Shown one piece after another: positions 35,003 through 55,445 of a stretch of 64,000 nucleotides of DNA (the stretch's first letter is position 1; the number at the start of each line of letters is the position of its first letter). Source of the stretch: Ensifer sp. LC163 (GTDB lineage: Bacteria > Pseudomonadota > Alphaproteobacteria > Rhizobiales > Rhizobiaceae); contig NZ_MBSS01000020.1 of NCBI RefSeq assembly GCF_001695855.1, forward strand, positions 1-64,000, given 5' to 3'. The notes beneath the pieces are model-generated. The model did no database searches, had not been told where the DNA came from, and was given only the letters and a program-made list of their open reading frames with translations. The position numbers and the translations under genes are program-made.

Positions 35003-35229
35003 CCGGAGGCACGCCAAGCGAGTGAAACGCGTCTCGTGGAGAGACGGCCGTCAGCTGCGATTTTGCCATGGTGGAGTTGCCTCCCGATGGTCGATCGCTG
35101 CCCGCAGCCGGATGCTTGCGAGCGGTTGAGCACAGCCAGGGCGGGTGCCGAAATGATGTGGTGTCCCCGACCCGCGTGTCGGGGGCAAGGTGTGAAGGTT
35201 TCGAACCGAATTTCCCAAGGAGGAAAGCG

Positions 35230-37641: not shown

Positions 37642-37680
37642 TCCGGGGCGGCTTGTCCAAAGGCACGTTATGGACATTTG

Positions 37681-37704
37681 CCTGCGCCCGATTGTGGGCG
37701 CAGG
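37681..37704 (+). terminator. Intercistronic hairpin between sulfatases 1 and 2
   Basis: CCTGCGCCC / GGGCGCAGG, 9-bp stem with a 6-nt loop, no T run. It may partly attenuate or stabilise the transcript between the two sulfatase genes. Confidence 0.5.
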
Positions 37705-37748
37705 TCCGGGTAAGATTTTCGAACTGAAGTCAGAAGCGGGAGACAGAC

Positions 37749-39335: not shown

Positions 39336-39440
39336 TTGGCTGCTCGCCACAAGGCCTGCAGACGCCGGCAGCATTCGGCTACGACGTCTGCAGAAAAATT
39401 CCGCACGACAACAGTTTAGGCACACGAGGGAGAAACAAAC

Positions 39441-40907
39441 ATGAAGTGCATGCGCGTCGGCATGGCGACCGGGCTGCTCGTCGGCCTCCTCTTCTCCATT
39501 GCCCCGAGTACTCCGGTGAACGCCGCCGACAAACGCACGCCGGCGCCGGAACTTGGGGCATTGCAAGGACGGGAGGCCCAGGCCTTCCAACTCGGCGTGA
39601 ACGCGGTCATGTGGGGCTACCCGGCCGTGTTCTTCGAAGATCTGATGCGCGGACGCACCCCAGTCGATGCCGAAGAGAAGACCGGCAATCCGCGTGCGCA
39701 AGTTAACCAGTTCGGGCTGGTTCGGAACCTGCGCGGGCCGGAGTTCAAGCAGATCGCCACGCCCAACAACGACACGCTCTATGCGCAGGCCTTCTGCGAT
39801 GTCAGCCGCGAGCCGCTTGTGCTCTCGGTGCCGGCGGTCGAGCCGGACCGCTACTATGTGATGCAGCTCTGGGACGTGAACGGCGACACCTTTGGCCATG
39901 TCGGTTCACGTGCAACCGGGCGCGAAGCTGGCCACTATGCGCTGGTCGGTCCCGGCTGGAAGGGTGAACTGCCGGCCGGCGTCAAGCGTATCGACAGTGA
40001 ATACAACAACTTTGCCATCTGGGGTCGCATCGGGGTAAATGGTCCTGACGACGTCGAAAATGCCAGGGCGATTCAGGACAAGCTCAGGCTGACGCCGCTC
40101 AGCCAGTTCGGCAACTCTGAAGAGCAGGTGCCGCCGGATATGGAATTCTCCGCGCAGCGCGTCGCCTATGAGAAACCGGCCGATCTGCCCGAAGGACTGG
40201 AGTTCTACGACAAGCTCGCGCATGCGCTGAAGCACACGCCGCCAAAGCCCGCGCAAGACGCGGTCGTGGCCGATAGCCTTGCCTATATCGGCTTCCGGAA
40301 CGGCAATACGGAGTTCGATTACAAAAGCCTGTCTGAACCGGAAATCACCGGACTGAAGAAGGCTTATCAGTTCGCCCTGCATGTCATGGACGTCAATGCC
40401 CAGACTGTCGGCGTTGCCGTCAACAACTGGCGCTGGAACCCGAAGTCCGGGATCATGGGCACGGACTATCTGTTCCGCGCCGCCTGGGCCAAGTGGTACA
40501 CGGGCGGCAACGCATCCGAGGAAGCGATCTACATGGACGGCCGCACCGACGACAAGGGTGAGCCGTTCGATGGCAGCAGGAAGTACATGATCCGCTTCGA
40601 GAAGGGGCAGACGCCCCATGTCAGCGCCTTCTGGTCGCTATCGATGTACCATCTGTCCGACGGCTCCTTCGTTGAAAACCCGATCAAGCGCTACTCGATT
40701 GGTGACCGAACGCCGGGCATCACCACCGCCGGGGACGGCTCGCTGACGATTTACATTCAGCACGATGAGCCTACCGACCCGACCCACAAGGCCAACTGGC
40801 TGCCGGCGCCGGAGGGCGGCTTCTACATGAACCTGCGCCTCTACGGCCCGGATGACAGCCTGAAGAACGGAACATGGGCACCGCCGCCGGTAACAGTGGC
40901 GCAGTAG
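39441..40907 (+). CDS. Secreted DUF1254/DUF1214 protein 1
   Basis: 488 aa. Signal peptide to about residue 28 (PVNAAD). The DUF1254 part has AFQLGVNAVMWGYPAVFFED, TPNNDTLYAQAFCDVSREPL and VMQLWDVNGDTFGHVG. The DUF1214 part includes FRAAWAKWYTGGNASEEAIY, VSAFWSLSMYHLSDGSFVEN and a C-terminal PAPEGGFYMNLRLYGPD. Crystal folds of these domains are beta sandwiches; function is poorly known. It sits between two sulfatases in the same direction, and similar genes lie at 52490 and 53988, so it is likely part of the same extracytoplasmic pathway. Confidence 0.9.
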   Translation: MKCMRVGMATGLLVGLLFSIAPSTPVNAADKRTPAPELGALQGREAQAFQLGVNAVMWGYPAVFFEDLMRGRTPVDAEEKTGNPRAQVNQFGLVRNLRGPEFKQIATPNNDTLYAQAFCDVSREPLVLSVPAVEPDRYYVMQLWDVNGDTFGHVGSRATGREAGHYALVGPGWKGELPAGVKRIDSEYNNFAIWGRIGVNGPDDVENARAIQDKLRLTPLSQFGNSEEQVPPDMEFSAQRVAYEKPADLPEGLEFYDKLAHALKHTPPKPAQDAVVADSLAYIGFRNGNTEFDYKSLSEPEITGLKKAYQFALHVMDVNAQTVGVAVNNWRWNPKSGIMGTDYLFRAAWAKWYTGGNASEEAIYMDGRTDDKGEPFDGSRKYMIRFEKGQTPHVSAFWSLSMYHLSDGSFVENPIKRYSIGDRTPGITTAGDGSLTIYIQHDEPTDPTHKANWLPAPEGGFYMNLRLYGPDDSLKNGTWAPPPVTVAQ

Positions 40908-41001
40908 GTCCGGCTCAACGAACTCGATTGGACGGCCGGCCGGCCGCAATTTCAAGAGGCCGGATCTCAAATGTTTCGAAACCTGAAAGCGAGGGTTCAA
41001 C

Positions 41002-42591
41002 ATGAAAGTCACTCGGTTAAACTCATTGAAGAAGTCGATGCTTGCGGCTGCGGCGATCGTTGCCGGCGGGTTGGGCCTTGCGGCCGTCCAGGCGCCGTTG
41101 GTGCCAGCCGCACAGGCGCAGGATGCGGCAAAGCCCAACATTCTTGTCATCATGGCCGACGACATCGGCTGGATGAACGTCTCGTCCTACAGCGGCGACA
41201 TCATGGGCGTTAAGACGCCGAACATCGACCGCATCGGCGAGGAGGGGCTGCGGTTGACGTCCTTCTATGCGCAACCGAGTTGCACCGCCGGTCGCGCTGC
41301 GTTCCTCACCGGGCAGTTGCCGGTGCGCACCGGCATGACCACCGTGGGTACGCCAGGCTCGCCCGCCGGCCTGCAGGCCGAGGACATCACGATTGCGGAA
41401 GTGCTGAAGTCGGCTGGTTATGCGACCGCACAGTTCGGCAAGAACCATCTCGGCGACCTCGACGCACACCTGCCGTGCAACCACGGCTTCGACGAGTATT
41501 TCGGTAACCTCTACCACCTTAACGCCAATGAGGATCTCGAGGACCCCGACCGCCCGGAAAATCCAGAGTTCCGGGCAAAATATGATCCGCGCGGTGTCGT
41601 TTCCTGCACAGCCGGCGGCCCGGTCAAGGACGAAGGGCCGTTGACGACCAAGCGCATGGAGACGTTCGACGAGGAGGCGCTCGGCAAGTCGATCAAATAT
41701 CTCGATGACCGGGCGAAGGACGGCAAGCCCTTCTTCCTTTGGCACAATCCGACGCGCATGCATGTCTTCCTGCACATGAAGGACGAGCGCAAAGGGGTTT
41801 CGCGCGCCGGTAGCCAGGATGTCTATGGTGACGGCCTTGCCGAACTCGACGATCACGTCGGCCAGCTCCTCGTCGAACTCGACAAGACGGGTCTCTCCAA
41901 GAACACAATTGTCGTCTTCACGACCGACAATGGCGCCTACCAATACATGTGGCCGGAGGGCGGAACGACGCCATTCCGCGGCGACAAGGGCACGACCTGG
42001 GAAGGCGGCGTGCGCGCGCCCTTCATGGTGCGCTGGCCGGGTGCTTCGGGACGTCGTGTCTCATCCGAGATCGTCGACATGACCGACCTCATGCCGACGA
42101 TGGCGGCGGCGGCGGGCGTCGATGATCTCGCGCCACGCCTGGCCAAGGGAGCATCCTTCAACGGCAAGGACTACAAGGTCCACCTCGACGGTTTCGACCA
42201 GGGCGCCTTTTTCCGCGGCGAGCAGGAGAACTCGAACCGCAAGTTCGTCTTTTACTATGACGAGACGGTGCTGACCGCGATCCGCTACGGCTACTACAAG
42301 GTGACCTTCTCGGCCAAGGAAGGCGGCAAGTGGGACAGCCCCCTGCAGAGCTATGGTCGTCCGCTGATCACCAACCTGCGGATGGATCCGTTTGAGCGTC
42401 AGGACGGCGACATCAACCGACAGCTCTCCGAGCACAAGACCTGGGCACTGACGCCGATCGTCAATATCGCCGTGCAGCACCTGGCAAGCTTCAAGGAGTT
42501 CCCGATCCGCCAACTCGGCATGAGCGCCGACGTCGGCAAGACCATCGAGGGCGTGCAGTCGCAGATCCTGAGGCTTCAGCAGACGCAGTAG
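41002..42591 (+). CDS. Secreted sulfatase 3 (CTAGR variant)
   Basis: 529 aa. Signal peptide to about residue 40 (AAQAQ). Sulfatase-fold motifs PNILVIMADDIGWMN, FGKNHLGD and FTTDNGAYQYMWPEGG are present. The formylglycine motif reads PSCTAGRAAFLTG (Cys at residue 94): Ala replaces the usual Pro and Gly precedes Arg. The C-x-A-x-R variant is known in a subset of type I sulfatases and is still a possible FGE substrate. A further TTWEGGVRAPFMVRWPG is normal for the family. It is the last intact gene before the RiPP island. Confidence 0.9.
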   Translation: MKVTRLNSLKKSMLAAAAIVAGGLGLAAVQAPLVPAAQAQDAAKPNILVIMADDIGWMNVSSYSGDIMGVKTPNIDRIGEEGLRLTSFYAQPSCTAGRAAFLTGQLPVRTGMTTVGTPGSPAGLQAEDITIAEVLKSAGYATAQFGKNHLGDLDAHLPCNHGFDEYFGNLYHLNANEDLEDPDRPENPEFRAKYDPRGVVSCTAGGPVKDEGPLTTKRMETFDEEALGKSIKYLDDRAKDGKPFFLWHNPTRMHVFLHMKDERKGVSRAGSQDVYGDGLAELDDHVGQLLVELDKTGLSKNTIVVFTTDNGAYQYMWPEGGTTPFRGDKGTTWEGGVRAPFMVRWPGASGRRVSSEIVDMTDLMPTMAAAAGVDDLAPRLAKGASFNGKDYKVHLDGFDQGAFFRGEQENSNRKFVFYYDETVLTAIRYGYYKVTFSAKEGGKWDSPLQSYGRPLITNLRMDPFERQDGDINRQLSEHKTWALTPIVNIAVQHLASFKEFPIRQLGMSADVGKTIEGVQSQILRLQQTQ

Positions 42592-43145: not shown

Positions 43146-43345
43146 CAAGTCTCTGTGGCATCAGGCCCCCGCAACCAGATCAAACAAAAAGCCCGCAAGA
43201 CAGAAATGTCGGCGGGCTTTTTGACGTTCTGGAGCCCGCAAATCCGCGCCCCCAAGTGACCTTGCCCCCAAGTTTTATCCGGTTTTGAGTTCGCTCCAGC
43301 GGTTTTTTGGTTGCTGCATTTGCGGCGGTAGCGACGGGTTGCGGT
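43146..43345. repeat. Direct repeat A flanking the RiPP island
   Basis: About 200 bp that match 49656-49833 nearly base for base, except for a ~25-bp extra segment near 43232-43257 and scattered changes. It contains three parts: a 13-nt match (43165-43177) to the 3' end of tRNA-fMet including CCA, a strong terminator hairpin, and the last ~20 codons plus end of an IS3-family transposase gene (minus strand, frameshifted here). Confidence 0.85.
43186..43222. terminator. Bidirectional terminator in repeat A
   Basis: AAAAAGCCCGC / GCGGGCTTTTT arms (43186-43196 and 43212-43222), with an inner GACA/TGTC stem. A run of A on one side and T on the other allows termination from both directions, including the leftward oxidase gene that ends at 43407. 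Confidence 0.8.
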
Positions 43346-43406
43346 ACTGACTTTAGCGACAGCAATGTCTCTGAAGGGAGTATCAAACCGACGGCAAATG
43401 GCAGAT

Positions 43407-44111
43407 TCATTCGGATGTCGATCCGCTAAAAAAGTAGAGTGGGCGCAGAGCTCGCACGCTTGCCGCGAGTGCATCGCAGCTATGGAGAACGCTCAAACCA
43501 ACCATTTCCAAGTGTTCCTGATCCAGCGGCAGCGTATCAAACGTGTGGTCGATCTCAGCGCTATGGGTTGGATCAAGGTCCCCATGAATTCTCAAAGTCC
43601 TGAACGTTGAGTTCGGAAGGCATGAACGATCTCGAATCTCATCGATCACACTGTCGGCAGGAGGAAAAGCCTCGAGAACCGCAATGTATCCGAGAAGCAT
43701 GAGAGGATGATGGTGCTGAAGCCAATAATACTGGCTGCCGACCAAGCGCGCGACTTCGACGGAAGGGGTGATGGATAGAACCCGCCTGGGATCGCACCCT
43801 GCAGCCTCAAGGTCCTCGAGTGCCCAGGTATCGTGGTGCAGTTCTTCGGAAGTATGATGGCGATAGTACTCTCCCAGCAAGGCGGCAAGCTTATCGGTTC
43901 CTTCCAGTTGATCGCATCTGACCGCGGCGGATTGCATGAGGGGGACCGACGCCCGCATGATCTGATGCAGCAAGACGAGGAAAGCGATCGTCATTTCCCG
44001 TTGAGGCTCGGTTCGCCAAAGGTCGCCAAAAGCCGCCTTAAGAGCGGGCATGCAGAGTTCGATTCTACCCCTCACAACGACACTATTCGCTCGTCTTTCA
44101 AACATACCCAT
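43407..44111 (-). CDS. Heme-oxygenase-like (HDO/TenA-fold) diiron oxidase candidate
   Basis: About 234 aa from ATG 44111 (alternatives are ATG 44105, and TTG 44192 which would add 27 residues). All-helical. The likely metal ligands of the heme-oxygenase-like diiron family are visible: ASEELHH-type segment (HHTSEELHHDTWALEDLE), a mid-helix Glu in GYIAVLEAF, and the last helix RIHGDLDPTHSAEIDHTFD with H, D and H. Members of this fold oxidise amino acids or peptides. It is divergent from the RiPP precursor operon across a 150-200 bp promoter region, inside the same repeat-bounded island, so a tailoring role is inferred. Confidence 0.75.
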   Translation of the reverse strand: MGMFERRANSVVVRGRIELCMPALKAAFGDLWRTEPQREMTIAFLVLLHQIMRASVPLMQSAAVRCDQLEGTDKLAALLGEYYRHHTSEELHHDTWALEDLEAAGCDPRRVLSITPSVEVARLVGSQYYWLQHHHPLMLLGYIAVLEAFPPADSVIDEIRDRSCLPNSTFRTLRIHGDLDPTHSAEIDHTFDTLPLDQEHLEMVGLSVLHSCDALAASVRALRPLYFFSGSTSE

Positions 44112-44192: not shown

Positions 44193-44338
44193 AATATAAG
44201 TAGCTCTTTAGTATTAAAGAGTAGTACTGGACAGATAAGGGGTGGCATCCTATTGTTATTGAGAGGCATCCTCTCCCAAGATCACTGACAGCAATCTAGC
44301 AAGCATCGAAAACTACTCAGAGCCTGAGGAGATCACAA
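44193..44338. promoter_or_regulatory. Divergent promoter region of the RiPP island
   Basis: AT-rich compared with its surroundings. It holds a hairpin CTCTTT/AAAGAG near 44205-44222 and a perfect inverted repeat GAGAGG-CAT-CCTCTC at 44263-44277, 62 bp before the precursor start. GGCATCCT occurs twice (44246 and 44267). A strong ribosome site (GAGGAG, 7 bp) precedes the precursor ATG. Confidence 0.55.
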
Positions 44339-44542
44339 ATGGCGGACTTCCAGTCAAATTTCGACAGGCTGAAGAATTCGAATGTCATTCCCGATGTGGA
44401 CGCGAATTTGCTCCCGAAAGCGGTACATGATGCGATCGCAAACCTGGGCGACGCCGAAATGACGGTTCTCGAAAAGATAAGTAGTTCGACTGGGACCCAC
44501 ATATACCTCAACAATAACCATCAGGTCATCTGTGGATTCTGA
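44339..44542 (+). CDS. RiPP precursor peptide candidate
   Basis: 67 aa. The first ~46 residues look like a leader: acidic and helical (ADFQSNFDRLKNSNV, then LPKAVHDAIANLGDAEMTVL). The C-terminal ~20 residues are different: ISSSTGTHIYLNNNHQVICG followed by Phe. This gives Ser48-50, Thr51, Thr53 and a single Cys65 as possible YcaO substrates. It has a strong ribosome site, directly precedes and overlaps the YcaO gene (11 bp), and has no similarity to enzymes. The leader/core boundary is a guess. It is not like trifolitoxin precursor TfxA by eye. Confidence 0.78.
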   Translation: MADFQSNFDRLKNSNVIPDVDANLLPKAVHDAIANLGDAEMTVLEKISSSTGTHIYLNNNHQVICGF

Positions 44543-45767
44543 ATTCGTGGTGTCGTCCGCTCTGCTGGACCGGTGGCCGTTGTACGACCGCCGCAATGAG
44601 GGGCATAGCGCCTTAGAAGAAGCCAAACACAAGCTGCTCCTCAAATCAACAATCGAGCAAGTCCCGGTAACACGCATAGCCGACATCACACCACTCGACG
44701 TCCTGGGCATTCCTGTGTTTGCAGCGGTCACTCCCCTGGCACGAGATTTGACCACCCATCTGGGCAAAGGGGTGGACAAAGAAGCGGCTCGCATCAGTGC
44801 CATCATGGAGTCGATCGAGAGGGTTTGCGCAGAGGAGTTCGAGCGCGAGTCTCGATCTTCCACTTATCTTGAGCTTAAAGCTTCCGGTGCCTATGTTGCC
44901 GATCCTCTGTCCTTCGATCTTCCCCCTCTGACCAGTTATCGTCCAGATTCGCGGATTGAATGGGTCGAGGGTTGGGAATTCATTCGGGCTCGTCCGATCT
45001 GGGTTCCAGCCGACCTGGCGCGGTCTCCTGCAAAGGAAGGTATACTGGATCAGGTCGATACCAATGGCTTGGCCGCCGGGTTCACTTGTGGCCGGGCGGT
45101 ACGCAGCGCGCTTCTGGAGGTTGTCGAACGGGATGCGGTCAGTCAGCACCACTTCTTTGAACAGTATGGACATGCGGGGGACGCCGGGCCTGCTGGACGC
45201 AGGATTGATCTGGATTCACTTCCTCCAATACCCAAGGCGCTTGCCGAGCGCGCCAAGGAATCAAAGCTGAGACTCATCCTGGAAGATCTGACGAGCGACC
45301 TTGACATACCAGTCATATCGAGCACGTTGATAGACCCGTCCTTTTGTAGTGCCGCGGGGCCGATGCCGCTGGTCGTTGCGGGGTGGGGCGCTGACCTTCA
45401 GGCCGGCGCCGCCGTTACACACGCTATCCTTGAGTCATTCCAATCAAGGCTCGGGGTCATTCACGGTGCCCGTGACTCGTACAACCAAGTCCCCCCTTCG
45501 CGGCGGGCCAGCGTATCCAAGCCCGGGATTCCTGTAGCCGAGCATCACTTCTCCACCATTGCCAATGCAAACTTGTCAGATCTTGAGTCAGAAATCGAAT
45601 TTGTCCTGGAGAGGCTGAAGTCCGTCGGACTTACGCAGGTCATAGTGATTGACATGAGCCGAAAGTCGCTGGGCCTGCCCGTTGTGAGGGTGCGCGTACC
45701 CGGTCTATCGCTCTTTACGATCGACCACCGCCGGGTTGGCTGGCGAAGTGCAAGGCACCTGCTGTAA
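44532..45767 (+). CDS. YcaO-family cyclodehydratase/thioamide synthase
   Basis: 411 aa from a GTG at 44532 inside the precursor gene. YcaO ATP-binding motifs are present: SAIMESIERVCAEE (about residues 89-102) and AAGFTCGRAVRSALLEVVER (about 181-200) with the E-x-x-E pair, then a late VVRVRVPGLSLFTIDHRR. YcaO enzymes phosphorylate peptide amide oxygens to install azolines or thioamides. No E1-like or ocin-ThiF partner is present, but a TfuA gene follows, which points to the TfuA-linked branch. The frame stops at TAATG, overlapping tfuA. Confidence 0.93.
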   Translation: MDSEFVVSSALLDRWPLYDRRNEGHSALEEAKHKLLLKSTIEQVPVTRIADITPLDVLGIPVFAAVTPLARDLTTHLGKGVDKEAARISAIMESIERVCAEEFERESRSSTYLELKASGAYVADPLSFDLPPLTSYRPDSRIEWVEGWEFIRARPIWVPADLARSPAKEGILDQVDTNGLAAGFTCGRAVRSALLEVVERDAVSQHHFFEQYGHAGDAGPAGRRIDLDSLPPIPKALAERAKESKLRLILEDLTSDLDIPVISSTLIDPSFCSAAGPMPLVVAGWGADLQAGAAVTHAILESFQSRLGVIHGARDSYNQVPPSRRASVSKPGIPVAEHHFSTIANANLSDLESEIEFVLERLKSVGLTQVIVIDMSRKSLGLPVVRVRVPGLSLFTIDHRRVGWRSARHLL

Positions 45768-46954
45768 TGGGCACGATGCGGATGCCGCCAGTCGTGTTTT
45801 TGGGGCCAAGTGCGCCCGCTTCGGACATCATGTCCATATTGCCAGGTGCGATCATAAGACCTCCAGCGAGGCGGGGGGACCTTTATGCTTGTCGCATCTT
45901 GAAGCACGAGTTCTTTCTGGTCCTGGACGGCGCATTTGGCAACGTACTTTCCATTTCGCCACGGGAAGTCGTTGACGTTGTCCAGGACGGGGCGGTCGTG
46001 GTCGGTGCCTCCAGCATGGGGGCGCTCCGAGCGGCGGATTGCTCTCCTGCAGGTGTGCATGGCGCAGGGATCATATTTCGGCTGTTCAAAGACCGGATAA
46101 TATCCGCGGAGGACGAGGTGGCAGTCCTGTACCGCGAGGACAGGGCTTATCCGTCGCTTACGGAGCCATTGATCAATATGCGGATCGCGCTGCGGCGGGC
46201 CATAAGGAACGGTCTCGTAGAAGCAGCCGAAGCCGAGGAAGTTATCTCGGCAGCTCAATTGCTTCATTTTACTCTCAGGACCTGGCCCAGAGCCTATCAG
46301 AAAGCCGGGCGCCACCTCTCGGGCGAACTGCGCGACTTTTTAACGGCGATAGATACGAAGCGCACCGACGCCGTTCAGGCCGCTAACAAGGTCTTGAAAT
46401 TACTAGAGGTTGATAGAGGTCCGCCCCGCGCATCCAGATCACCTCAGTTGTTTGGCCTTCTGGGCGATGGCAGGGAACGGGCCCCCGATGCGCTGAGTGG
46501 CGCGGATCGGCAACAGATTGAAGCCGAGTTCATCGAGTGGCTTTGCTGTTCCGGGCGGGGCTATCCACGGCTCGGCAATGAAATTGACTGGCTCATCGGA
46601 GAATTGAAGGTGCCGAATGCGTCGGTTTGGAATATTCTTGACGGCTCGAGCGAACTGCAGGCCGACCTGATGAGGTTCAACGTCTTTTGCAGGGCTGTCG
46701 CCGAAGCTCGGCGATGCGGCCTTCGGCCGGAAATGGAGGACTTCCGGCAAGCTGAAAGTCAACTGGCCAACGCCCATCGTGCCGGCTCATGGAATGAGCT
46801 CCTCAATTGCAAAGGAAGTGGTTCGTCTTTCTCCAAGCGCCTGAGCATACATTGCACTCAACTTGCTCTGACCAAATGCCTTCGACGGACATCCTTGTTC
46901 GGAGCGGCTCTGTCAACGAAGCCGAGAGAGGTTTTGTTATGGCACCCCCGGTAG
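45767..46954 (+). CDS. TfuA-like RiPP maturation protein
   Basis: 395 aa. The TfuA core occupies about residues 8-160: VVFLGPSAP, ILPGAIIRPPARRGDL, VLDGAFGNVLSISPREV, VVVGASSMGALRAADC and GVHGAGIIFRLFKDR. These match the TfuA family first seen in trifolitoxin synthesis and later tied to YcaO-dependent thioamidation, where it may deliver sulfur. The C-terminal ~230 residues are longer than the minimal TfuA and have no motif I recognise; the part at about 250-330 (EFIEWLCCSGRGYPRLGNEI) may bind the peptide. Start overlaps the YcaO stop by one base. Confidence 0.92.
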   Translation: MGTMRMPPVVFLGPSAPASDIMSILPGAIIRPPARRGDLYACRILKHEFFLVLDGAFGNVLSISPREVVDVVQDGAVVVGASSMGALRAADCSPAGVHGAGIIFRLFKDRIISAEDEVAVLYREDRAYPSLTEPLINMRIALRRAIRNGLVEAAEAEEVISAAQLLHFTLRTWPRAYQKAGRHLSGELRDFLTAIDTKRTDAVQAANKVLKLLEVDRGPPRASRSPQLFGLLGDGRERAPDALSGADRQQIEAEFIEWLCCSGRGYPRLGNEIDWLIGELKVPNASVWNILDGSSELQADLMRFNVFCRAVAEARRCGLRPEMEDFRQAESQLANAHRAGSWNELLNCKGSGSSFSKRLSIHCTQLALTKCLRRTSLFGAALSTKPREVLLWHPR

Positions 46955-49584
46955 AAAGCCAGACTCAATCGCCAGGCAACAGCGTTTGCATGCTCTTTAC
47001 TGACATTGAGGGTTCGACAAACCTGGTGGATTCTTATCCCGACCTCTATGATGAGATGCTCCTTCGGCACAATGAGTTGCTGCGCAACGCCATCCAATCC
47101 TATGGTGGCGAGGAAATAAACGTTGTTGGCGACTCTGTTTTCGCACTCTTTCCTGGCTCCGCCCAAGGGGTTCAGGCAGCGATTGACGCCCAACTTGCTC
47201 TCAAGAAAGAAGAATGGGCTCAAGGATGCAAGCCATCGGTCCGGATGGGTCTGCATTCCGGAACTGTGAGAAGACATGATGTCACCGTGACCGGAATAGA
47301 GGTGCATCGTGCGGCTCGTATCGCATCGGTGGCACATGGAGGTCAGATCGTCATTTCGAACGTCGTCCGCGATGAGCTGGCAGAAGGCCTCATCGGAGCG
47401 ACCGTAGAAGTGCGCGATCTCGGATTCCATCGCCTCAAGGATCTTCGATATCCTGAAGCGTTGTTCGATCTGGTGGTCCCGGGACTACCAAGCGAATTTG
47501 CGCCTATCTCATCGATCGGCGCGAATCGCACCAATCTCCCGTCCGATTTGCCGGTTCTCTACGGTCGGGGCCTGGAATTAGCCCGGTTAAATCAAATACT
47601 AGCGGATAAACAGAGCCGTATTATTACGCTGACAGGCGCCGGTGGCGTGGGCAAGACAAGCTTGGCGATCCGCGCTGGCAGATCAGCGCTAAGCTTCTTT
47701 TCACGGGGCGTGTTTTTCGTACAGTTGAGAGAAATTGACAACCCGGATCTGATCGGTTCGGAAATCTGCAAGGCCATAGGCCTGCAGGAGGTGCCCGGTA
47801 TCTCCGCCATCGAAACGGTGTGCAACTCGCTGGGTGGCGCTGAGGTGTTATTGATATTCGACACTTTCGAGCATCTGGTCGAAGCTGCGCCGGTCATAAA
47901 TGCCATTCGCAAAACATGTCCGGCGACCACCGTTCTGAGCACCAGTCGCGAGCCCCTCAAATTGCGCTCGGAGACGGAATTCGTCGTGCCTCCCCTCAGC
48001 GTACCGGACGAAGGGGAGGGCTTCGACCGGATTCTCGAGAATCCATCCGTGCAGCTCTTTGAGAAGTTCGCACGCCGCGAACGACCGGACTTCAGCTTGG
48101 GAGATGACACACTGGGGCCGGTATCCAGAATATGCCGGAGACTTGACGGGCTACCACTGGCGCTTGAACTGGCAGCCTCGCATGTAGGGCTCCTCAGTGT
48201 AGCGGAGCTGGAGGACCGTCTTCAATACAGTATGCAAGACCTTCGAAGCAGGGCGCGGGATAGTGATCCTCGTCACCGTACCCTTCGTCTGATGATCGGA
48301 TGGAGCGACCATCTCCTGACGGAAAGCCAGCGCCGGGTTTTTTATGCATCGGCCGTCTTTAACGGCGGCTTCGATCTTCGTGCCGTCGTATCCTTGTTCG
48401 AGGACGAGATCGATGTCGTTGACCAGGTAGAAGCTCTTCTGGACAAAAGCCTATTGTTCAGAACGACAGCTCTGGGCCATCCGCGTCTCAACATGCTGGA
48501 CACGGTTCGCGATTATGCGCTCGACAAGCTGCGCGGGTCGGGCGAGTACGAAACTATCCGTGACCGTCAGGCGGACCATTTTACCGAGCTTGTTCTGTCA
48601 GCCGCGCCAAACGTGATGAGGTTCAATCAGCGCGATTCTGTCGAGCACCTGATGCAAGAGTCTGGGAACATTCGGGTGGCACTCGAATGGCGGATGAGGC
48701 AATCCAGCGCCCTTCAATCCGCCAAGCTCATCGAGGCGCTGACGTGGCTTTGGATATCGAGGGGCCAGTTTTCGGAAGCGAGAACATGGTCGGACAAAGC
48801 TTTGCAACACGCGCGGACCACAGGTGAACCAGAGCCGCGGGCGCGAATTTTGAACTCAGCCGCCTTGATCCGGTACATGTCTGGTGAGCCTGAAACAGCG
48901 CGCGAAAGCGGCGTTGAAAGTCACCGTATCTACTCCGAGCTGGGGAACAAGGCCGGAATTGCGAGTGCCGGGATTATTGCCGGCATTGCCAAAGCCACCT
49001 CGGGTGACCCTGACGCAGGCGGCGCTTTGATCGTGGAATCACTCGAACTGGCGAAGCTCATCGGCGACGACCATGGAACCGTGCTTGCGCTTATTGCAAT
49101 TGGGGAAGGAACACGCGCCGAAGGGGACGAGGCTGCTGCCGAAGCCTACTATCTTGATGCCCTCAAACTGCTCGACAAACTGGGTGACACCTATTGGCAT
49201 GGCCACCTATTGCAGAACCTCGCCCATTTCAGACTGCACAGCAGCGATTGGAGGAACGCTGCGGCGTTCGCCGGCCGGGCCCTGGCTATCGGCGAGAGAT
49301 ATGACTACCCGATGGTAGTGAACCTCGCTGTCGCAGCGATAAGCGGAGTGCTCGCAGCGAAAGAGGATTGGGACGGTGCTGCAGAAATCATCGGGGCAGT
49401 GAATGGTCGTCTTGCTCGGCTGGGAGTCCGATTTGAGCCGACAGACGACGCCGATTTTCAAAGGATCGTGTCTGCGGTTCGCAAGGCATCAGGAAACAAA
49501 CGATTCGCCCGTGTAAGCGGAAAAGGGGCTAAGCGCCAATGGGAGCAAATACTTTCGTCATGCCGCGCTGCCGTTGCAAGTTAG
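46939..49584 (+). CDS. Class III cyclase - STAND ATPase - TPR regulator
   Basis: 881 aa. Residues about 12-170 form a class III nucleotide cyclase domain: VCMLFTDIEGSTNL and NVVGDSVFALFP carry the two metal Asp, and GIEVHRAARIAS is the substrate helix (His replaces the usual Asn). A P-loop GAGGVGKTS lies near residues 233-241, followed by NB-ARC-type LLIFDTFEH and STSREPL and a GLPLALELAA motif (STAND/AfsR-like). The last ~280 residues look like TPR helices. No DNA-binding domain is visible. ATG 46939 with GAGAGG overlaps the tfuA end by 16 bp, so it is translationally coupled to the RiPP genes. Confidence 0.88.
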   Translation: MAPPVESQTQSPGNSVCMLFTDIEGSTNLVDSYPDLYDEMLLRHNELLRNAIQSYGGEEINVVGDSVFALFPGSAQGVQAAIDAQLALKKEEWAQGCKPSVRMGLHSGTVRRHDVTVTGIEVHRAARIASVAHGGQIVISNVVRDELAEGLIGATVEVRDLGFHRLKDLRYPEALFDLVVPGLPSEFAPISSIGANRTNLPSDLPVLYGRGLELARLNQILADKQSRIITLTGAGGVGKTSLAIRAGRSALSFFSRGVFFVQLREIDNPDLIGSEICKAIGLQEVPGISAIETVCNSLGGAEVLLIFDTFEHLVEAAPVINAIRKTCPATTVLSTSREPLKLRSETEFVVPPLSVPDEGEGFDRILENPSVQLFEKFARRERPDFSLGDDTLGPVSRICRRLDGLPLALELAASHVGLLSVAELEDRLQYSMQDLRSRARDSDPRHRTLRLMIGWSDHLLTESQRRVFYASAVFNGGFDLRAVVSLFEDEIDVVDQVEALLDKSLLFRTTALGHPRLNMLDTVRDYALDKLRGSGEYETIRDRQADHFTELVLSAAPNVMRFNQRDSVEHLMQESGNIRVALEWRMRQSSALQSAKLIEALTWLWISRGQFSEARTWSDKALQHARTTGEPEPRARILNSAALIRYMSGEPETARESGVESHRIYSELGNKAGIASAGIIAGIAKATSGDPDAGGALIVESLELAKLIGDDHGTVLALIAIGEGTRAEGDEAAAEAYYLDALKLLDKLGDTYWHGHLLQNLAHFRLHSSDWRNAAAFAGRALAIGERYDYPMVVNLAVAAISGVLAAKEDWDGAAEIIGAVNGRLARLGVRFEPTDDADFQRIVSAVRKASGNKRFARVSGKGAKRQWEQILSSCRAAVAS

Positions 49585-49655: not shown

Positions 49656-49833
49656 CAAGTCTCAGTGCTATCAGGCCCCGCAACCAGATCATAAAAAAGC
49701 CCGCAGGACAGCAATGTCCGCGGGCTTTTTGACGTTCTGAACCGCTGACCTTGCCCCCAAGTTTTATCCGGTTTTGAGTTCGCTCCAGCGGTTTTTGGTT
49801 GCTGCATTTGCGGCGGTAGCGACGGGTTGCGGT
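49656..49833. repeat. Direct repeat B flanking the RiPP island
   Basis: 178 bp matching repeat A (43146-43345). It begins with CAAGTCTC, includes a near copy of the tRNA-fMet 3' end (one C fewer), the terminator, and the 3' end of an IS3-family transposase gene. Beyond 49833 the two copies diverge: copy B continues into more of the transposase. Confidence 0.85.
49694..49730. terminator. Bidirectional terminator in repeat B
   Basis: AAAAAGCCCGC (49694-49704) pairs with GCGGGCTTTTT (49720-49730), plus an inner GGACA/TGTCC stem with a GCAA loop. It lies 110 bp after the cyclase gene and probably ends the RiPP operon. Confidence 0.88.
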
Positions 49834-49951
49834 GCGGAGCCATTTCGGCTGCGCAGCACCGCATCACGTCGCGGGTTGACGGTCTGAGCGAACTCGGCAG
49901 GTGTCAGCCAGCCGAGGCCAGAGTGCGGTCGGTGATCGTTGTAGTCGCTGC
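49764..49951 (-). pseudogene. IS3-family transposase (OrfB) C-terminal relic
   Basis: On the minus strand the segment DYNDHRPHSGLGWLTPAEFA, followed by SAPQPVATAANAATKNRWSE and a stop at 49764, is the C-terminal end of an IS3-type integrase-core transposase (the DYN-x-RPH-x-x-L motif). The N-terminal part is missing; the coding stretch ends at 49951, where the IS66 element begins. Repeat A contains only the last ~20 codons of the same gene. Confidence 0.85.
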
Positions 49952-50034
49952 GTAACCGGTGTCCCGCCCCCACGTTGTCCTCCCCGCGCTGATCTGTGAT
50001 CGCCTTTCCATGGACGAGCGATAGGAGTTTCTCC

Positions 50035-50423
50035 ATGGAGACTACATTGGAGGTTCTCACGACCAGGAAGTCTGGACGTGAGGTTCACCGGCACTGGCCG
50101 GACGAGGTGAAGGCGCAGATCGTTTCGGAGAGCGCCTTCGGCCCGGCGCGATGGTGAATGAGGTTGCAGAGCGGCATGGCCTGAAGCCGAACCACCTGTC
50201 CACCTGGCGAACAATGGCGCGGCAGGGCAAGTTGGTTCGGCCCGCACCCGAGGGCCCCGTGGAGTTCGCAGCGGTGATCGTTGATCCACCCGCTTCGGAG
50301 CCGACAATCAAAAAAGCCAGTCGTCCCGAGATCATCGTCGGTTCCGTCACTATCCGTCTGGAAGAAGGCGCGTCTGCCGCCCGGATCGCCGCTGTCGCGC
50401 GTGCCTGCGCGGTTCCGGCATGA
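50035..50423 (+). pseudogene. tnpA: IS66 OrfA (tnpA), frameshifted
   Basis: The ATG at 50035 opens METTLEVLTTRKSGREVHRH and runs to a TGA near 50155. The rest (MVNEVAERHGLKPNHLSTWR, then ARQGKLVRPAPEGPVEF) is in another frame from 50151. Two extra bases (GC) near 50140 explain the break: removing them gives SESLRPGAMVNEV, as in intact OrfA. OrfA is a small HTH protein needed for IS66 transposition, so the element may be immobile unless programmed frameshifting rescues it. Confidence 0.85.
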
Positions 50424-50773
50424 TCTTTCCATCGAACCGGGTTCGGATAATGATAGCGACCAAGCCAGTCGACTTCCGTAAGGGCCACGATGGCTTGGCG
50501 GCACTGGTCAGGAACCAGCTACACAAAGACCCGTTTACCGGAACAGTCTTCATATTCCGGTCGCGCAAAGCAGACCGATTGAAGCTGATCTACTGGGATG
50601 GCAGCGGTCTGGTGATGGCCTACAAGTGGCTGGAGGAGCACACGTTTACCTGGCCAGGTATCAAGGATGGCCTGATGACCTTGGGCCATGCCCAGTTCGA
50701 AGCGCTGTTTGCAGGCCTCGACTGGCGTCGGGTCCGTTCCGTTGAGGCGAGAGCGCCTGACACCATCGAATAG
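50420..50773 (+). CDS. tnpB: IS66 OrfB (TnpB accessory protein)
   Basis: 117 aa. IS66 Orf2 hallmark residues: KPVDFRKGHDGLAALV, VFIFRSRKADRLKLIYWDGS and MAYKWLEEHTFTWP. It overlaps the tnpA stop (ATGA), as is usual for this family. Role in transposition is accessory and poorly defined. Confidence 0.95.
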   Translation: MIFPSNRVRIMIATKPVDFRKGHDGLAALVRNQLHKDPFTGTVFIFRSRKADRLKLIYWDGSGLVMAYKWLEEHTFTWPGIKDGLMTLGHAQFEALFAGLDWRRVRSVEARAPDTIE

Positions 50774-50841
50774 GTGCGTCACGATGACTCGGGCGGCAAA
50801 TTCCGGCGGTGAGACGAGGCAGAATTTGATAAACTTCGACC

Positions 50842-52380
50842 ATGTTGGACGCCGCCGATCTGCCCGACGACATTACTGCCCTGAAGGCGATGCTGATCGC
50901 GGCGCAAGCGCGTGAAGTCCGCAAGGATGAGCGGATCGAAAGGCTGGAGAAGCTGGTTGCCGCTTTCAAGCAGGCGGCCTTCGGTCGCAAATCCGAGACG
51001 ACCGATCCCGAGCAGTTCGATCTGGCGCTGGAGGACCTTGAGGCGGCCATCGCTGCCATCCAAGCCGAAGAAGAAGCGGATGGCCCTTCTGGAAAGCAGC
51101 GCTCCAAATCCCGTGCAGCCAATCGCGGCTTTCTTCCCGCGCATCTTCCACGCATAGATGAGGTCATCGAGCCGGAAAGCCTGATCTGCGCTTGCGGCGG
51201 ATGCCTGCATCGAATCGGCGAGGACGTGTCCGAGCGGCTGGACGTCGTCCCGGTGCAGTTCCGCGTCATTGTCACCCGTCGTCCTAAATATGCCTGCCGC
51301 GCCTGCACCGACGGCATTGCTCAGGCTCCGGCCCCAGCACGACTGATCCAAGCCGGGTTGCCGACGGAGGCGACCATTGCGCATGTGCTGGTGTCCAAAT
51401 ACGCCGATCATTTGCCGCTCTATCGGCAGGCCCAGATCATGAGCCGCCAGGGCATCGATCTCGACCGCTCCACGCTTGCCGATTGGGTTGGTCGGGCAGC
51501 TTTCGAACTGCGTCCGGTCTTCGACGCGTTGATTGCCGATCTGAAGCGCTCGACCAAGCTGTTCATGGACGAGACCCGTGCGCCGGTACTTGATCCCGGC
51601 TCCCGTAAAACCAAGACCGGATACTTCTGGGCACTTGCTCGTGACGACCGACCATGGGGCGGAGGTGCGCCGCCGGGTGTGGCCTTCACCTATGCTCCAG
51701 GTCGCGGCGGGCTACATGCCGAACGAATATTGCAGGGCTTCTCAGGCATTCTGCAGGTCGACGGCTATGCCGGATACAACAGGCTGATCGCACCGGACCG
51801 TGTTGGTCCCGACATTCGGCTTGCCTATTGCTGGGCACACGCGCGTCGAAAGCTGGTGGAGATCACCCGCAACGGACCTGCGCCGATTGCCGAAGACGGC
51901 GTGAAGCGGATTGGCGAACTGTATCGGATCGAGGCCCACTTGCGTGGTCTTGATCCGCAAACCCGCCTCGCCGCAAGACAGGAGCGATCAGCCGCGCTGG
52001 TCACCGACATGGAAACATGGCTCGCCCACCATCGTGCACGTGTGGCAGCCAAGTCCCCACTCGGCGAAGCCCTGAACTACATCGTCAAGTACTGGAACGG
52101 TCTGCGGCTATTCCTGACCGACGGCCGCATCGAGCTCGACAACAACAGCGTCGAGCGAACCATCCGACCGATAGCCCTCAATCGGAAGAATGCGCTCTTT
52201 GCAGGCCACGACGCCGGGGCCGAAAACTGGGCCGCCATCGCCTCGCTCGTTGAGACCTGCAAGCTCAATGCCGTTGATCCGCAGGTCTACCTGGCCAGCA
52301 CGCTCACCGCCATCGTCAACGGCCACAAGCAGAGCCGGATCGATGACCTGCTTCCTTGGAATTATCCCGCCAAGGTGTGA
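50842..52380 (+). CDS. tnpC: IS66 transposase (TnpC, DDE type)
   Basis: 512 aa, full length. N-terminal coiled coil (ERIEKLVAAFKQAAFGRKSE-like region), a zinc-finger-like CACGGCLHRIGEDVSE, then the DDE core with LFMDETRAPVLDPG, LQVDGYAGYNRL and, near the end, ELDNNSVERTIRPIALNRKN. The transposase looks intact even though tnpA is broken. Confidence 0.96.
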   Translation: MLDAADLPDDITALKAMLIAAQAREVRKDERIERLEKLVAAFKQAAFGRKSETTDPEQFDLALEDLEAAIAAIQAEEEADGPSGKQRSKSRAANRGFLPAHLPRIDEVIEPESLICACGGCLHRIGEDVSERLDVVPVQFRVIVTRRPKYACRACTDGIAQAPAPARLIQAGLPTEATIAHVLVSKYADHLPLYRQAQIMSRQGIDLDRSTLADWVGRAAFELRPVFDALIADLKRSTKLFMDETRAPVLDPGSRKTKTGYFWALARDDRPWGGGAPPGVAFTYAPGRGGLHAERILQGFSGILQVDGYAGYNRLIAPDRVGPDIRLAYCWAHARRKLVEITRNGPAPIAEDGVKRIGELYRIEAHLRGLDPQTRLAARQERSAALVTDMETWLAHHRARVAAKSPLGEALNYIVKYWNGLRLFLTDGRIELDNNSVERTIRPIALNRKNALFAGHDAGAENWAAIASLVETCKLNAVDPQVYLASTLTAIVNGHKQSRIDDLLPWNYPAKV

Positions 52381-52489: not shown

Positions 52490-53899
52490 ATGATGAAGTT
52501 GGTAGTGGTAATCCTTGCGCTCCTATGTGCTTCCATGCCCGTCCAGGCGCAAGACCTCTCTTCCGACGAGCTTGCCGAGCGGGTGGTGGAGCGCCGCGCC
52601 CTCGAGGCGGTCATCTGGGGCATGCCGGCCGTTAACTACGACCTCATGTACCAGGCGATGGTGCGCGATGCCAAAGGCGCCCCCAACCAGATCGTTTACT
52701 GGTCGCGCCTTCTGGATTGGAAGAACCAGACACTGACCCCGAACCCGGACGCGATCTACCTCATGCCCTTCTTCAACACGAAGGACGTTGGGCCGGTGGT
52801 GCTCGAGATTCCGCCCGCCGGCGACGGGTCGATCACCGGCTCGATCATGGATGGCTGGCAATCGCCGCTCGAAGACGTCGGTCCGGCTGGCGTCGATAAG
52901 GGCAAGGGTGGCAAATACCTCATCCTGCCTCCCGGCCACGACGAGAAGGTTCCCGACGGCTACATCGCCCTGCCATCTGAAACCTACGGCGGCTATGCGT
53001 TGCTGCGCTCCATTCTCAAGAGCGGCAGCGAGGCTGACATCGCCAAGGCTGTCGCCTACGGCAAGCGCATCAAGCTCTATCCCCTGTCGCAAGCGGCCAA
53101 TCCGCCGGCGACGACCTATGTCGATGCGATCGATGTCGTGTTCGAAGCCAATATTCCCTATGACCAGCGCTTCTTCCAGTCGCTGGACCGCTTTGTGCAA
53201 AGCGAGCCCTGGCTCCTGCGGGACAAGGCGATGATCGATCCGCTCAAGTCGATCGGCATCGAGAAGGGCAAGCCGTTCACCCCCGACGCGAAACGGCAGG
53301 ACATCCTCAAGCAAGCTGCACAGGAGGCGCGCGCATCGCTCGATGCGCGATACGAAGCGGCCCTTTCGTCACCTTATTTTTCTGGCACCCAATGGGGCCT
53401 GCCGGTTGCGACCGGCGTTGTCACGGAACTGGCAGAGTATTTCTCGAAGCCCGACACCTACTCCTGGGATGACCGCGGCTTGCTGTTTTATTTCGTCTTC
53501 AGCGGCATCAAGCATCTGGGTGCGGGCCAATTCTACCTGTTTGCCATCAAGGATCGGGACGGCCAGTTCTTCGACGGCGGCAGCACCTACCGCCTGACGG
53601 TACCGGCAGACGTGCCGGTAAGGCAGTACTGGTCCGCGGTCGTTTATGACCGCGCGACACATGCGCTTATCCGCAACCTGCCGTCGTCCAGCCACTCCTC
53701 CCTGAACCCGGGACTACAGAAGAATGCCGATGGTTCGGTGGACCTCTACTTCGGCCCCGAAGCGCCGGCCGGCAAGGAGTCGAACTGGATACCGACTGGC
53801 GCGGGAGGGTCCTTCGAGATCTGCTTCCGCTTCTACGGGCCCGAGAAGCCGTTGTTCGACAAGGCCTGGAAGCTGCCGGACATCGAAAAAGTAAGGTGA
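52490..53899 (+). CDS. Secreted DUF1254/DUF1214 protein 2
   Basis: 469 aa. Signal peptide to about residue 20 (SMPVQAQ). DUF1254 features: RRALEAVIWGMPAVNYDLMY, TLTPNPDAIYLMPFFNTKDV and DGSITGSIMDGWQSPLEDVG. DUF1214 features: TYRLTVPADVPVRQYWSAVV, VDLYFGPEAPAGKESNWIPT, and FRFYGPEKPLFDKAWKLPDI at the end. It is closer to the next gene than to the DUF1254 protein at 39441. It begins 62 bp after the proposed IS66 end, so its native promoter may have been replaced. Confidence 0.9.
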   Translation: MMKLVVVILALLCASMPVQAQDLSSDELAERVVERRALEAVIWGMPAVNYDLMYQAMVRDAKGAPNQIVYWSRLLDWKNQTLTPNPDAIYLMPFFNTKDVGPVVLEIPPAGDGSITGSIMDGWQSPLEDVGPAGVDKGKGGKYLILPPGHDEKVPDGYIALPSETYGGYALLRSILKSGSEADIAKAVAYGKRIKLYPLSQAANPPATTYVDAIDVVFEANIPYDQRFFQSLDRFVQSEPWLLRDKAMIDPLKSIGIEKGKPFTPDAKRQDILKQAAQEARASLDARYEAALSSPYFSGTQWGLPVATGVVTELAEYFSKPDTYSWDDRGLLFYFVFSGIKHLGAGQFYLFAIKDRDGQFFDGGSTYRLTVPADVPVRQYWSAVVYDRATHALIRNLPSSSHSSLNPGLQKNADGSVDLYFGPEAPAGKESNWIPTGAGGSFEICFRFYGPEKPLFDKAWKLPDIEKVR

Positions 53900-53987
53900 A
53901 CAACCCTCGCCCATAAGGCGAGAGGTTCGAGAGAGGTCGATCTGAAATCGACTATCTCTATGCGAAACGACCAATTGGAGGACCACC

Positions 53988-55445
53988 ATGAAACTTACCG
54001 CACTTGCTTCGGTCGCTATCGCATTGATGCCGATAACGCCTGTCGCGGCACAGGACACATCATCCTCAAAGCCGTACGCGTTCGAGCGCGGGTATCCAAC
54101 GCGCGAGACCGTCCAGAAAGCCTATGACGATGCCGATCTGAACCGCGCCATCCAGGCGTATCGGTTCTTCTATCCGACCATCTCCGCGATCGGAATGGCC
54201 AAGGGAATGCAAGAGCAGGGCATCGTCACCAACTCGGTGATTGGGGTGATGCAGGCGACACCGAAACAGATCGCCTATACGCCGAACTCCGATACCCCCT
54301 ATGCGCCGACCCTTCTCAGCCTCAAGGATGGCCCGATCACGATCGAGATGCCGCCTGGCCCGCTGATTTGCGTTGCAATCGATTTCAACATGCGGTGGGT
54401 GGCCGACATGGGAGTGCCTGGCCCCGATGCGGGTAAGGGCGGCAAGCATATTCTCCTGCCACCCGGATATACCGGTGAAGTGCCCTCCGGCTACCACGCC
54501 TGGAAGTCCACGACCAACGGCCTGATGATCGTCGTCCGTTCGCTGCCGGTCGGAGGCGACATCAAGGGCTCTGTCGACCGCATCAAAGCGATCAAGATCG
54601 AACCCTTGAGCCGGCCAGCGGGCTGGACGCCGCTCAAATGGGTCGACACGGGTGACGTTCCGACGAAAGCCTCGCCTCAGGCGCTGGGTTGGGACGGCAG
54701 CTTCAAGTATTGGGAAGTCTTGCACGAAGTCATTGAAAGCGAGCCGGCCTTCGAAAGCTACCGCGCCATGTACGGCGAACTCGCTGTGCTTGGCCTCGTC
54801 AAGGGCAAGCCGTTCGCGCCCGATGAGCGCATGAAGCGCATCCTCGAACAAGCCGCCCGGATCGGCGATGCGCAGATGCGTGTCCAGTCCTTCGCCGACC
54901 GTCGACCCGACCGTTTCGCCTGGCCGGATCGAAAGTGGGAATGGGCCGCGTTGCGTTCGGAAAACGGCGACTTCGATATGCCGACCTACGTCGATCTGGA
55001 TGCACGCGAGAAGTGGTTTTATCAGGCGACCGGCGCGTCACCCGCGATGTTCCGGCGATCGGAGGGCGCGGGCTCCCTCTATTGGCTCGGGCTTCGCGAC
55101 AAGGACGACGCCTTCCTCGACGGGGGCAAGACGTACAAATTGACCGTGCCCTTGCCTGTTCCGAACAAGCTCTTCTGGTCGGTGACGGTCTATGACGCCG
55201 AAACGCGAAGCGAGATCGTGACGGACCAGGGCAAGGCCGCACTGCGATCATTGTTCGAACTCAAGGACAAGGCCGGAGAATCTGTCGACCTGTACTTTGG
55301 ACCGGCAGCGCCGGCTGGTCATGAAAACGAATGGATCAAGACATCGCCGGGCAAGGGCTGGTTCACCTATTTCCGCATCTACGGACCCGAGAAGCCCGCA
55401 TTTGACGGTAGCTGGAAACCCGGCGACTTCGAAGAGGTGAAATAG
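53988..55445 (+). CDS. Secreted DUF1254/DUF1214 protein 3
   Basis: 485 aa. Signal peptide to about residue 22 (PVAAQ). Shares the YTPNSDTPYAPTLLSLKDGP, PPGYTGEVPSGYHAWKS, KLFWSVTVYDAETRSEIVTD and VDLYFGPAAPAGHENEWIKT pattern with the preceding gene, and ends FDGSWKPGDFEEVK. The two are tandem paralogues separated by 88 bp. That gap contains a small hairpin (CTCGCC/GGCGAG) and a good ribosome site (GGAGG, 6 bp). Confidence 0.9.
   Translation: MKLTALASVAIALMPITPVAAQDTSSSKPYAFERGYPTRETVQKAYDDADLNRAIQAYRFFYPTISAIGMAKGMQEQGIVTNSVIGVMQATPKQIAYTPNSDTPYAPTLLSLKDGPITIEMPPGPLICVAIDFNMRWVADMGVPGPDAGKGGKHILLPPGYTGEVPSGYHAWKSTTNGLMIVVRSLPVGGDIKGSVDRIKAIKIEPLSRPAGWTPLKWVDTGDVPTKASPQALGWDGSFKYWEVLHEVIESEPAFESYRAMYGELAVLGLVKGKPFAPDERMKRILEQAARIGDAQMRVQSFADRRPDRFAWPDRKWEWAALRSENGDFDMPTYVDLDAREKWFYQATGASPAMFRRSEGAGSLYWLGLRDKDDAFLDGGKTYKLTVPLPVPNKLFWSVTVYDAETRSEIVTDQGKAALRSLFELKDKAGESVDLYFGPAAPAGHENEWIKTSPGKGWFTYFRIYGPEKPAFDGSWKPGDFEEVK

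Follow-up and report, generated by a model that had tools for sequence, protein, structure and literature searches.

A five-gene cassette on contig NZ_MBSS01000020.1 of Ensifer sp. LC163, within the 64,000 nucleotides analyzed here (positions 1 to 64,000, hereafter the window), probably constitutes a self-contained unit for making a thioamidated and oxidized ribosomally synthesized and post-translationally modified peptide (RiPP). From left to right, it comprises a minus-strand gene for a heme-oxygenase-like diiron oxidase (HDO), followed by plus-strand genes for a 67-amino-acid (67-aa) peptide, YcaO, TfuA and a cyclase-STAND-TPR protein. That the product is thioamidated is very probable, and the HDO quite likely acts on the peptide. 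Support for this reading comes from a shared four-gene set, a single group of YcaO proteins, the score of YcaO against the McrA-type model together with the fold of TfuA, and a peptide end of Gly-Leu or Gly-Phe. The features of the cassette are the following.

43407..44111, minus strand: HDO, predicted heme-oxygenase-like diiron oxidase, 234 aa (PF14518); the longest frame reaches 44192, and the start was set by the ATG of relatives.
44204..44221, no strand: palindrome CTCTTTA-GTAT-TAAAGAG, a possible operator, from aligned intergenic regions.
44228..44256, plus strand: promoter-like TGGACA-17-TATTGT, 9 of 12 consensus positions.
44327..44332, plus strand: Shine-Dalgarno sequence AGGAGA of the peptide gene, 6 nt upstream of the ATG, from the sequence.
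44339..44542, plus strand: putative precursor peptide, 67 aa, with a leader at about residues 1-50 and a core at about residues 51-67 ending in ..VICGF; supported by homologues at the equivalent position in the window and 18 loci, and by dN/dS.
44532..45767, plus strand: YcaO, predicted thioamidation type, 411 aa (PF02624); GTG start, overlapping the peptide ORF by 11 bp.
45767..46954, plus strand: TfuA, 395 aa, a TfuA domain (PF07812) followed by roughly 150 aa of helical C-terminal region; overlaps YcaO by 1 bp.
46939..49584, plus strand: putative class III nucleotidyl cyclase-STAND ATPase-TPR protein, 881 aa from the ATG (PF00211, AAA_16, TPR_12); overlaps TfuA by 16 bp.

An earlier note on this DNA had described positions 44339-49584 as a compact YcaO-TfuA RiPP-type operon rather than a standard azole pathway, which the present analysis supports. 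Its coordinates, open reading frame (ORF) lengths and overlaps of 11, 1 and 16 bp hold, as does the strong ribosome site that it assigned to the 67-aa ORF. The 16-bp overlap is counted from the ATG of the cyclase gene, the longest frame of which has a TTG start at 46807. The note had also reported that no dehydrogenase is present; this is correct inside its span, but it missed the divergent HDO oxidase gene just outside, which is conserved in each cassette.

A YcaO alignment was scanned against 84,980 species genomes; 233 passed, and the best 80 loci were kept. All four of HDO, peptide, YcaO and TfuA occur in 18 of these 80 YcaO loci (L036-L052 and L054) as well as in the window, and the same four-gene set is present on four S. 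fredii plasmids. Hosts are found in Sinorhizobium/Ensifer, Rhizobium, Mesorhizobium, Geminicoccaceae, Jhaorihella, Aliishimia and other Alphaproteobacteria, together with one Myxococcales assembly. L054 differs in having its HDO gene downstream rather than upstream of TfuA. Because some of the remaining 62 YcaO stretches are short, the lack of a match in them does not always count as evidence of absence. Across 115 loci, matches to the HDO profile and to the peptide profile fall on an identical set of 26, a coincidence in which some places are counted twice and for which the profiles were built from these same loci. Distant cassette members share no further ORF family besides the cyclase and overlapping shadow frames. 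The gene set has a rare and patchy distribution: an HDO of the cassette type is encoded by 6 of 327 family genomes and the peptide by 2 of 397 order genomes. Of 38 stretches of viral contigs that matched a pattern, none encoded a relative.

A tblastn search detects the 67-aa peptide in three of 101 genomes of relatives, the window's own among them, and with 84-85% identity in four plasmid records of S. fredii; two further plasmid matches (E 6 and 8) are noise. Combined tblastn and profile searches place the peptide gene upstream of YcaO in every cassette, and the conservation of the 67-aa ORF beside YcaO-TfuA in relatives, which the earlier note had put forward as a check, is thus observed. 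The peptide has dN/dS values of 0.95, 0.59 and 0.54 in its three closest pairs, which reflect few substitutions and in which no constraint is visible; against more distant relatives, the values are 0.35, 0.22 and 0.12. Judging from the sequences, the peptide ORF is more than a chance frame.

An alignment of 16 peptides, which range from 57 to 84 residues across the family, reveals a conserved leader with a predicted helix-like pattern (N..LK..NVIPD...LP..V.DAI.NLT..E...L) and a short, variable C-terminal part, without repeats and without APR or GPR. The last residue is Leu or Phe in all 16 peptides and the penultimate residue is Gly in 15, with Ala in L054. The SSSTGT stretch and the Cys, which the earlier note had emphasized, are not supported as modification sites: the triple Ser is restricted to the window sequence and Cys is found in 10 of the 16. 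Pfam names no family for the precursors, giving scattered weak matches to 12 families at E up to 1, in agreement with the note's failure to recognize the peptide; the best single match, PhdYeFM (E 0.0021, one member), is taken as chance. The description of the precursor as new-looking is borne out in part. The window member has no NCBIfam match at E up to 10, but 13 of the 16 peptides match the aroma-sacti leader domain (NF045560) at E up to 1, with a best score of 27.9 bits (cut-off 30), and the leader of a further relative, L137, exceeds the cut-off with 33.2 bits. By these profile scores, the leader is probably related to the aroma-sacti domain. Leaders of the aroma-sacti/StsA type (NF045560, NF045559) appear similar in this domain; unlike them, the cassette peptide is partnered by YcaO-TfuA and an HDO, and the conserved set contains no radical SAM gene.

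YcaO matches PF02624 (217.4 bits), and its best NCBIfam score is to TIGR03266, the McrA-glycine thioamidation model (224.2 bits, cut-off 365). The SagD-type azole model scores lower than the thioamidation model (126.7 bits, cut-off 219). The closest solved relative of YcaO is MJ1094 (PDB 6pe3, E 1.3e-30). TfuA matches PF07812 (113.9 bits) and reaches 148 bits with the McrA-type equivalog model (cut-off 235), while a structural model of it, at pLDDT 78.6, matches 6xp8, the TfuA of M. acetivorans, with an E-value of 1.5e-12 and a TM-score of 0.84 by target. Both proteins are, as predicted from these matches, of the thioamide-forming type. As in thioamidated RiPP clusters, ycaO and tfuA are adjacent and are accompanied by a short, conserved precursor that divides into leader and core. 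Residues ~240-377 of TfuA (window 46484-46897) form a helical C-terminal region outside the known domain. This region has no fold match in the PDB, which speaks against a known leader-binding fold; it may bind the leader.

The YcaO tree holds 74 rows from 82 candidates (the 80 loci, L029 and the window), eight having been dropped by a length and hit filter. The 19 cassette members form one group, defined by one branch with 97/68 support in a tree with long branches and present in 98% of 200 bootstrap trees. Its sister consists of six YcaO proteins without an HDO, from Sorangium, Leisingera, Amycolatopsis and Streptomyces; neither the HDO nor the peptide is matched in the corresponding loci (L053, L055-L057, L080 and L029). 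Archaeal McrA-type YcaOs, like the YcaO of the Nocardiopsis locus L109, lie apart from the cassette proteins. L029, on a Streptomyces cadmiisoli plasmid, was dropped as nearest outside relative, as it lacks a TfuA match and is placed in the sister group; its YcaO gene adjoins a gene annotated as encoding a cupin-domain protein.

HDO matches PF14518 (36.3 bits, cut-off 28.9). A Foldseek search with its AlphaFold2 model (pLDDT 84.9) returns 3dde as nearest structure, then TenA/THI-4 proteins, UndA and CADD, with modest TM-scores (0.48-0.68 by query in the first rows). Residues E117, H120, E174, H203, D207 and H210 (numbering of the 261-aa frame) are invariant in 16 rows and stay so when L137 is added. 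From the motif and the alignment to 3dde, these six are the predicted metal ligands, corresponding to the 3H/3C set of a diiron oxidase as set out in PMC13108848. Both marks of the HDO superfamily, the heme-oxygenase-like fold and the 3H/3C ligand set, are found here and are shared with UndA, CADD, AetD and SznF; in the HDO tree, the cassette proteins form a group of their own (100/99) apart from the eight other HDOs compared. The HDO profile, run on the 385 genomes of the class, gave a match (E up to 0.001) in 20. In 16 of the 19 other matching genomes no peptide, YcaO or TfuA profile match lies beside the HDO, several of these stretches being short and the neighborhoods examined being those above the three weakest matches (4e-5).

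L137 (genome G775) encodes an HDO (E 1.2e-74), a 57-aa leader peptide (E 2e-7) and a cyclase-STAND-TPR protein (37% over 845 aa) in the same order and orientation as the cassette, while the genome, rated 100% complete, has no PF02624 or PF07812 match anywhere. Its peptide ends in ..RPMMF, so that the terminal Phe is retained and the penultimate Gly is gone. This comparison suggests that the terminal Leu/Phe belongs to the HDO and the Gly to YcaO-TfuA. Three other genomes of the same genus are without the HDO, and the HDO tree is compatible with either loss or primary absence of YcaO in L137.

The chemistry of thioamidation, oxidation and release would, as we infer it, proceed as follows. The leader would bring the peptide to YcaO-TfuA, which would replace the oxygen in the backbone of the penultimate Gly with sulfur, as at the Gly-Phe site of McrA. 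According to PMC5589413, this site has the context LGFFG(465)F, thioamidated Gly465 being followed by Phe; the enzyme type and the Gly-then-Phe site are thus alike, but in methanogens the McrA target lies inside a large enzyme, and that of the cassette would be the end of a 57- to 84-residue peptide. The HDO would bind the free C-terminal Leu/Phe and oxidize it by desaturation, hydroxylation or oxidative decarboxylation; its free carboxylate could bind iron, like the substrates of other 3H/3C HDOs in PMC13108848. The core would be released by housekeeping, unlinked peptidases, and the cyclase-STAND-TPR protein would act as a sensor, for the peptide or for pathway status, that signals via a cyclic nucleotide. 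For the individual steps, Gly as thioamidation site has nearly even support, the C-terminal residue as HDO site is a more tentative assignment, and the cyclase as a peptide-responsive sensor is a rather doubtful one.

Several observations weigh against this scheme. YcaO (224 of 365 bits) and TfuA (148 of 235) both fall under the curated cut-offs of the McrA equivalogs, and no RRE-like leader-binding protein was identified. The conserved set includes neither an exporter nor a peptidase, leaving release and export unexplained. L054 has YcaO-TfuA yet ends in Ala-Leu, so the Gly is not strictly tied to these enzymes, and this locus has no cyclase beside TfuA. The joint loss of Gly and YcaO is seen in one genome. 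Finally, the literature, in the excerpts available, holds no product, mass or enzyme assay for the cassette family.

The fifth gene deserves separate consideration. The large regulator of the earlier note is present as a gene, but its product, a predicted class III cyclase-STAND-TPR protein, matches no DNA-binding family in Pfam. In the window and in L036-L052, hence 18 of the 19 cassettes, the gene immediately after TfuA encodes a cyclase; L054 lacks one there. In L049-L051 the window-type cyclase is replaced at this position by a SAM-domain cyclase-AAA protein of different architecture. The L049 protein resembles the TOMM kinase/cyclase fusion (TIGR03903) over its cyclase-AAA part, scoring 431.9 bits; unlike this fusion, it stays under the cut-off of 705.75 bits, aligns from profile position 270 and lacks the kinase part, and TIGR03903 is absent from the NCBIfam matches of the window cyclase. 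All 13 aligned cyclases retain Walker A and the metal-binding Asp positions. The CYC type carries VHRAAR, and the SAM type has Asn in place of its His, Asn being the usual residue of class III cyclases at this position. The 6.5-Mb genome of the window contains 28 PF00211 matches, and a chance neighborhood of cyclase and TfuA is unlikely. A link between cyclases and RiPPs is as such not new, because PMC8939145 names adenylate cyclases among the genes near some RiPP clusters. In PADLOC, the cyclase part weakly matches Pycsar cyclase models (best 1.3e-6); the other four cassette proteins have no match, and the conserved set includes no effector.

These data bear on a competing model in which HDO, leader peptide and cyclase-STAND-TPR protein form the core of a signaling module and YcaO-TfuA is a common add-on; the oxidized peptide would stay inside the cell as a TPR/STAND ligand and trigger cyclic nucleotide synthesis. 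Consistent with this model, L137 keeps exactly these three components, the cyclase recurs after TfuA in either architecture despite the small number of PF00211 proteins genome-wide, and the conserved set is free of export and peptidase genes. On the other hand, L054 does without a cyclase, the YcaO-free form is known from one genome for which the HDO tree fits both histories, the His in VHRAAR leaves cyclase activity putative, and cyclase-STAND proteins are common in this group. Taken together, we regard the model as rather improbable.

A second model equates the cassette with a thiovarsolin-type pathway, in which the HDO would be a VarO orthologue desaturating a side chain beside the thioamide and the cyclase a mere regulator. 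In PMC6511847, the varA/Y/T/O cluster likewise combines a precursor, YcaO, TfuA and a heme-oxygenase-like protein, VarO being required for peptide desaturation, and PMC8120280 (2021), in the passage concerned, draws this very comparison for TfuA clusters with a heme-oxygenase-like gene in several Sinorhizobium species. Unlike thiovarsolin, however, the cassette has a non-repeating peptide without APR/GPR and with a Gly-Leu/Phe end, a divergent HDO and a cyclase gene. Its YcaO proteins are a separate lineage, apart from L109 with its YcaO-TfuA-MFS-ATP-grasp content; this presumed thiovarsolin relative gives no HDO-profile match. The likeness to thiovarsolin is therefore one of gene content and not of close YcaO descent, and a pathway of this type is improbable. 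A linear azol(in)e pathway on Ser, Thr and Cys, suggested by the YcaO family enzyme and by the presence of these residues in the window peptide, and implied by one of the mass shifts listed in the earlier note, is rejected as very improbable given the TfuA gene, the lower SagD-type score, the lack of a cyclodehydratase partner (E1/ocin-ThiF) or dehydrogenase among the conserved genes and scanned window ORFs, and a Cys present in 10 of the 16 peptides next to an unconserved Ser/Thr run.

The Sinorhizobium clusters of PMC8120280 share genus, YcaO-TfuA and a heme-oxygenase-like gene with the cassette and, as far as the passage goes, are very likely the same clusters. Since that survey already reported them, the cassette is a variant of an already known kind of cluster. 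The excerpts of the open-licence literature hold no characterized product for them; the precursor family, the cyclase link, the taxonomic spread and the YcaO-free form go beyond the single sentence of the survey.

The divergent intergenic region between HDO and peptide gene measures 227 bp and contains the palindrome and the promoter-like site. In 11 aligned intergenic regions, the palindrome is exact in four, altered in four, without its right arm in two and absent in one. Two promoter-like sites are observed in the region against 0.5 expected, and ACTGGACA at the promoter-like site is unchanged across all 11 aligned sequences.

Imperfect direct repeats (43186-43350 and 49694-49838) bracket the cassette about 6.5 kb apart, in three ungapped blocks of 100%, 96% and 93% identity, and may be what is left, at either end, of one insertion element. 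The right repeat overlaps the end of an integrase-core frame (49764-50060, minus strand; PF13683), and the cassette is closely followed by an IS66-family element (50151-52380; HTH_Tnp_1, TnpB_IS66, DDE_Tnp_IS66). Cassette and IS66 element are flanked, in 35068-42591 and 52490-55445, by a set of three sulfatase genes (35068, 37749, 41002) and three DUF1254/DUF1214 genes (39441, 52490, 53988), as if one gene region had been split by insertions.

What looks like an ordinary operon is a coherent, uncharacterized RiPP family. In legume symbionts it is a small, defined and widespread set, in which YcaO-TfuA and the HDO seem to converge on the final two residues of a single peptide. Peptides as HDO substrates have so far received little study. 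With a natural relative without YcaO-TfuA available alongside the full cassette, the step of each enzyme becomes assignable. Another question raised by the cassette is whether a STAND cyclase can be driven by a peptide carrying such modifications. It is unlikely, at present, that a C-terminally oxidized leader peptide, mostly also thioamidated one residue earlier, is the intracellular ligand of the STAND-TPR cyclase; if this were true, O2- and sulfur-dependent peptide modification would become a cyclic-nucleotide signal.

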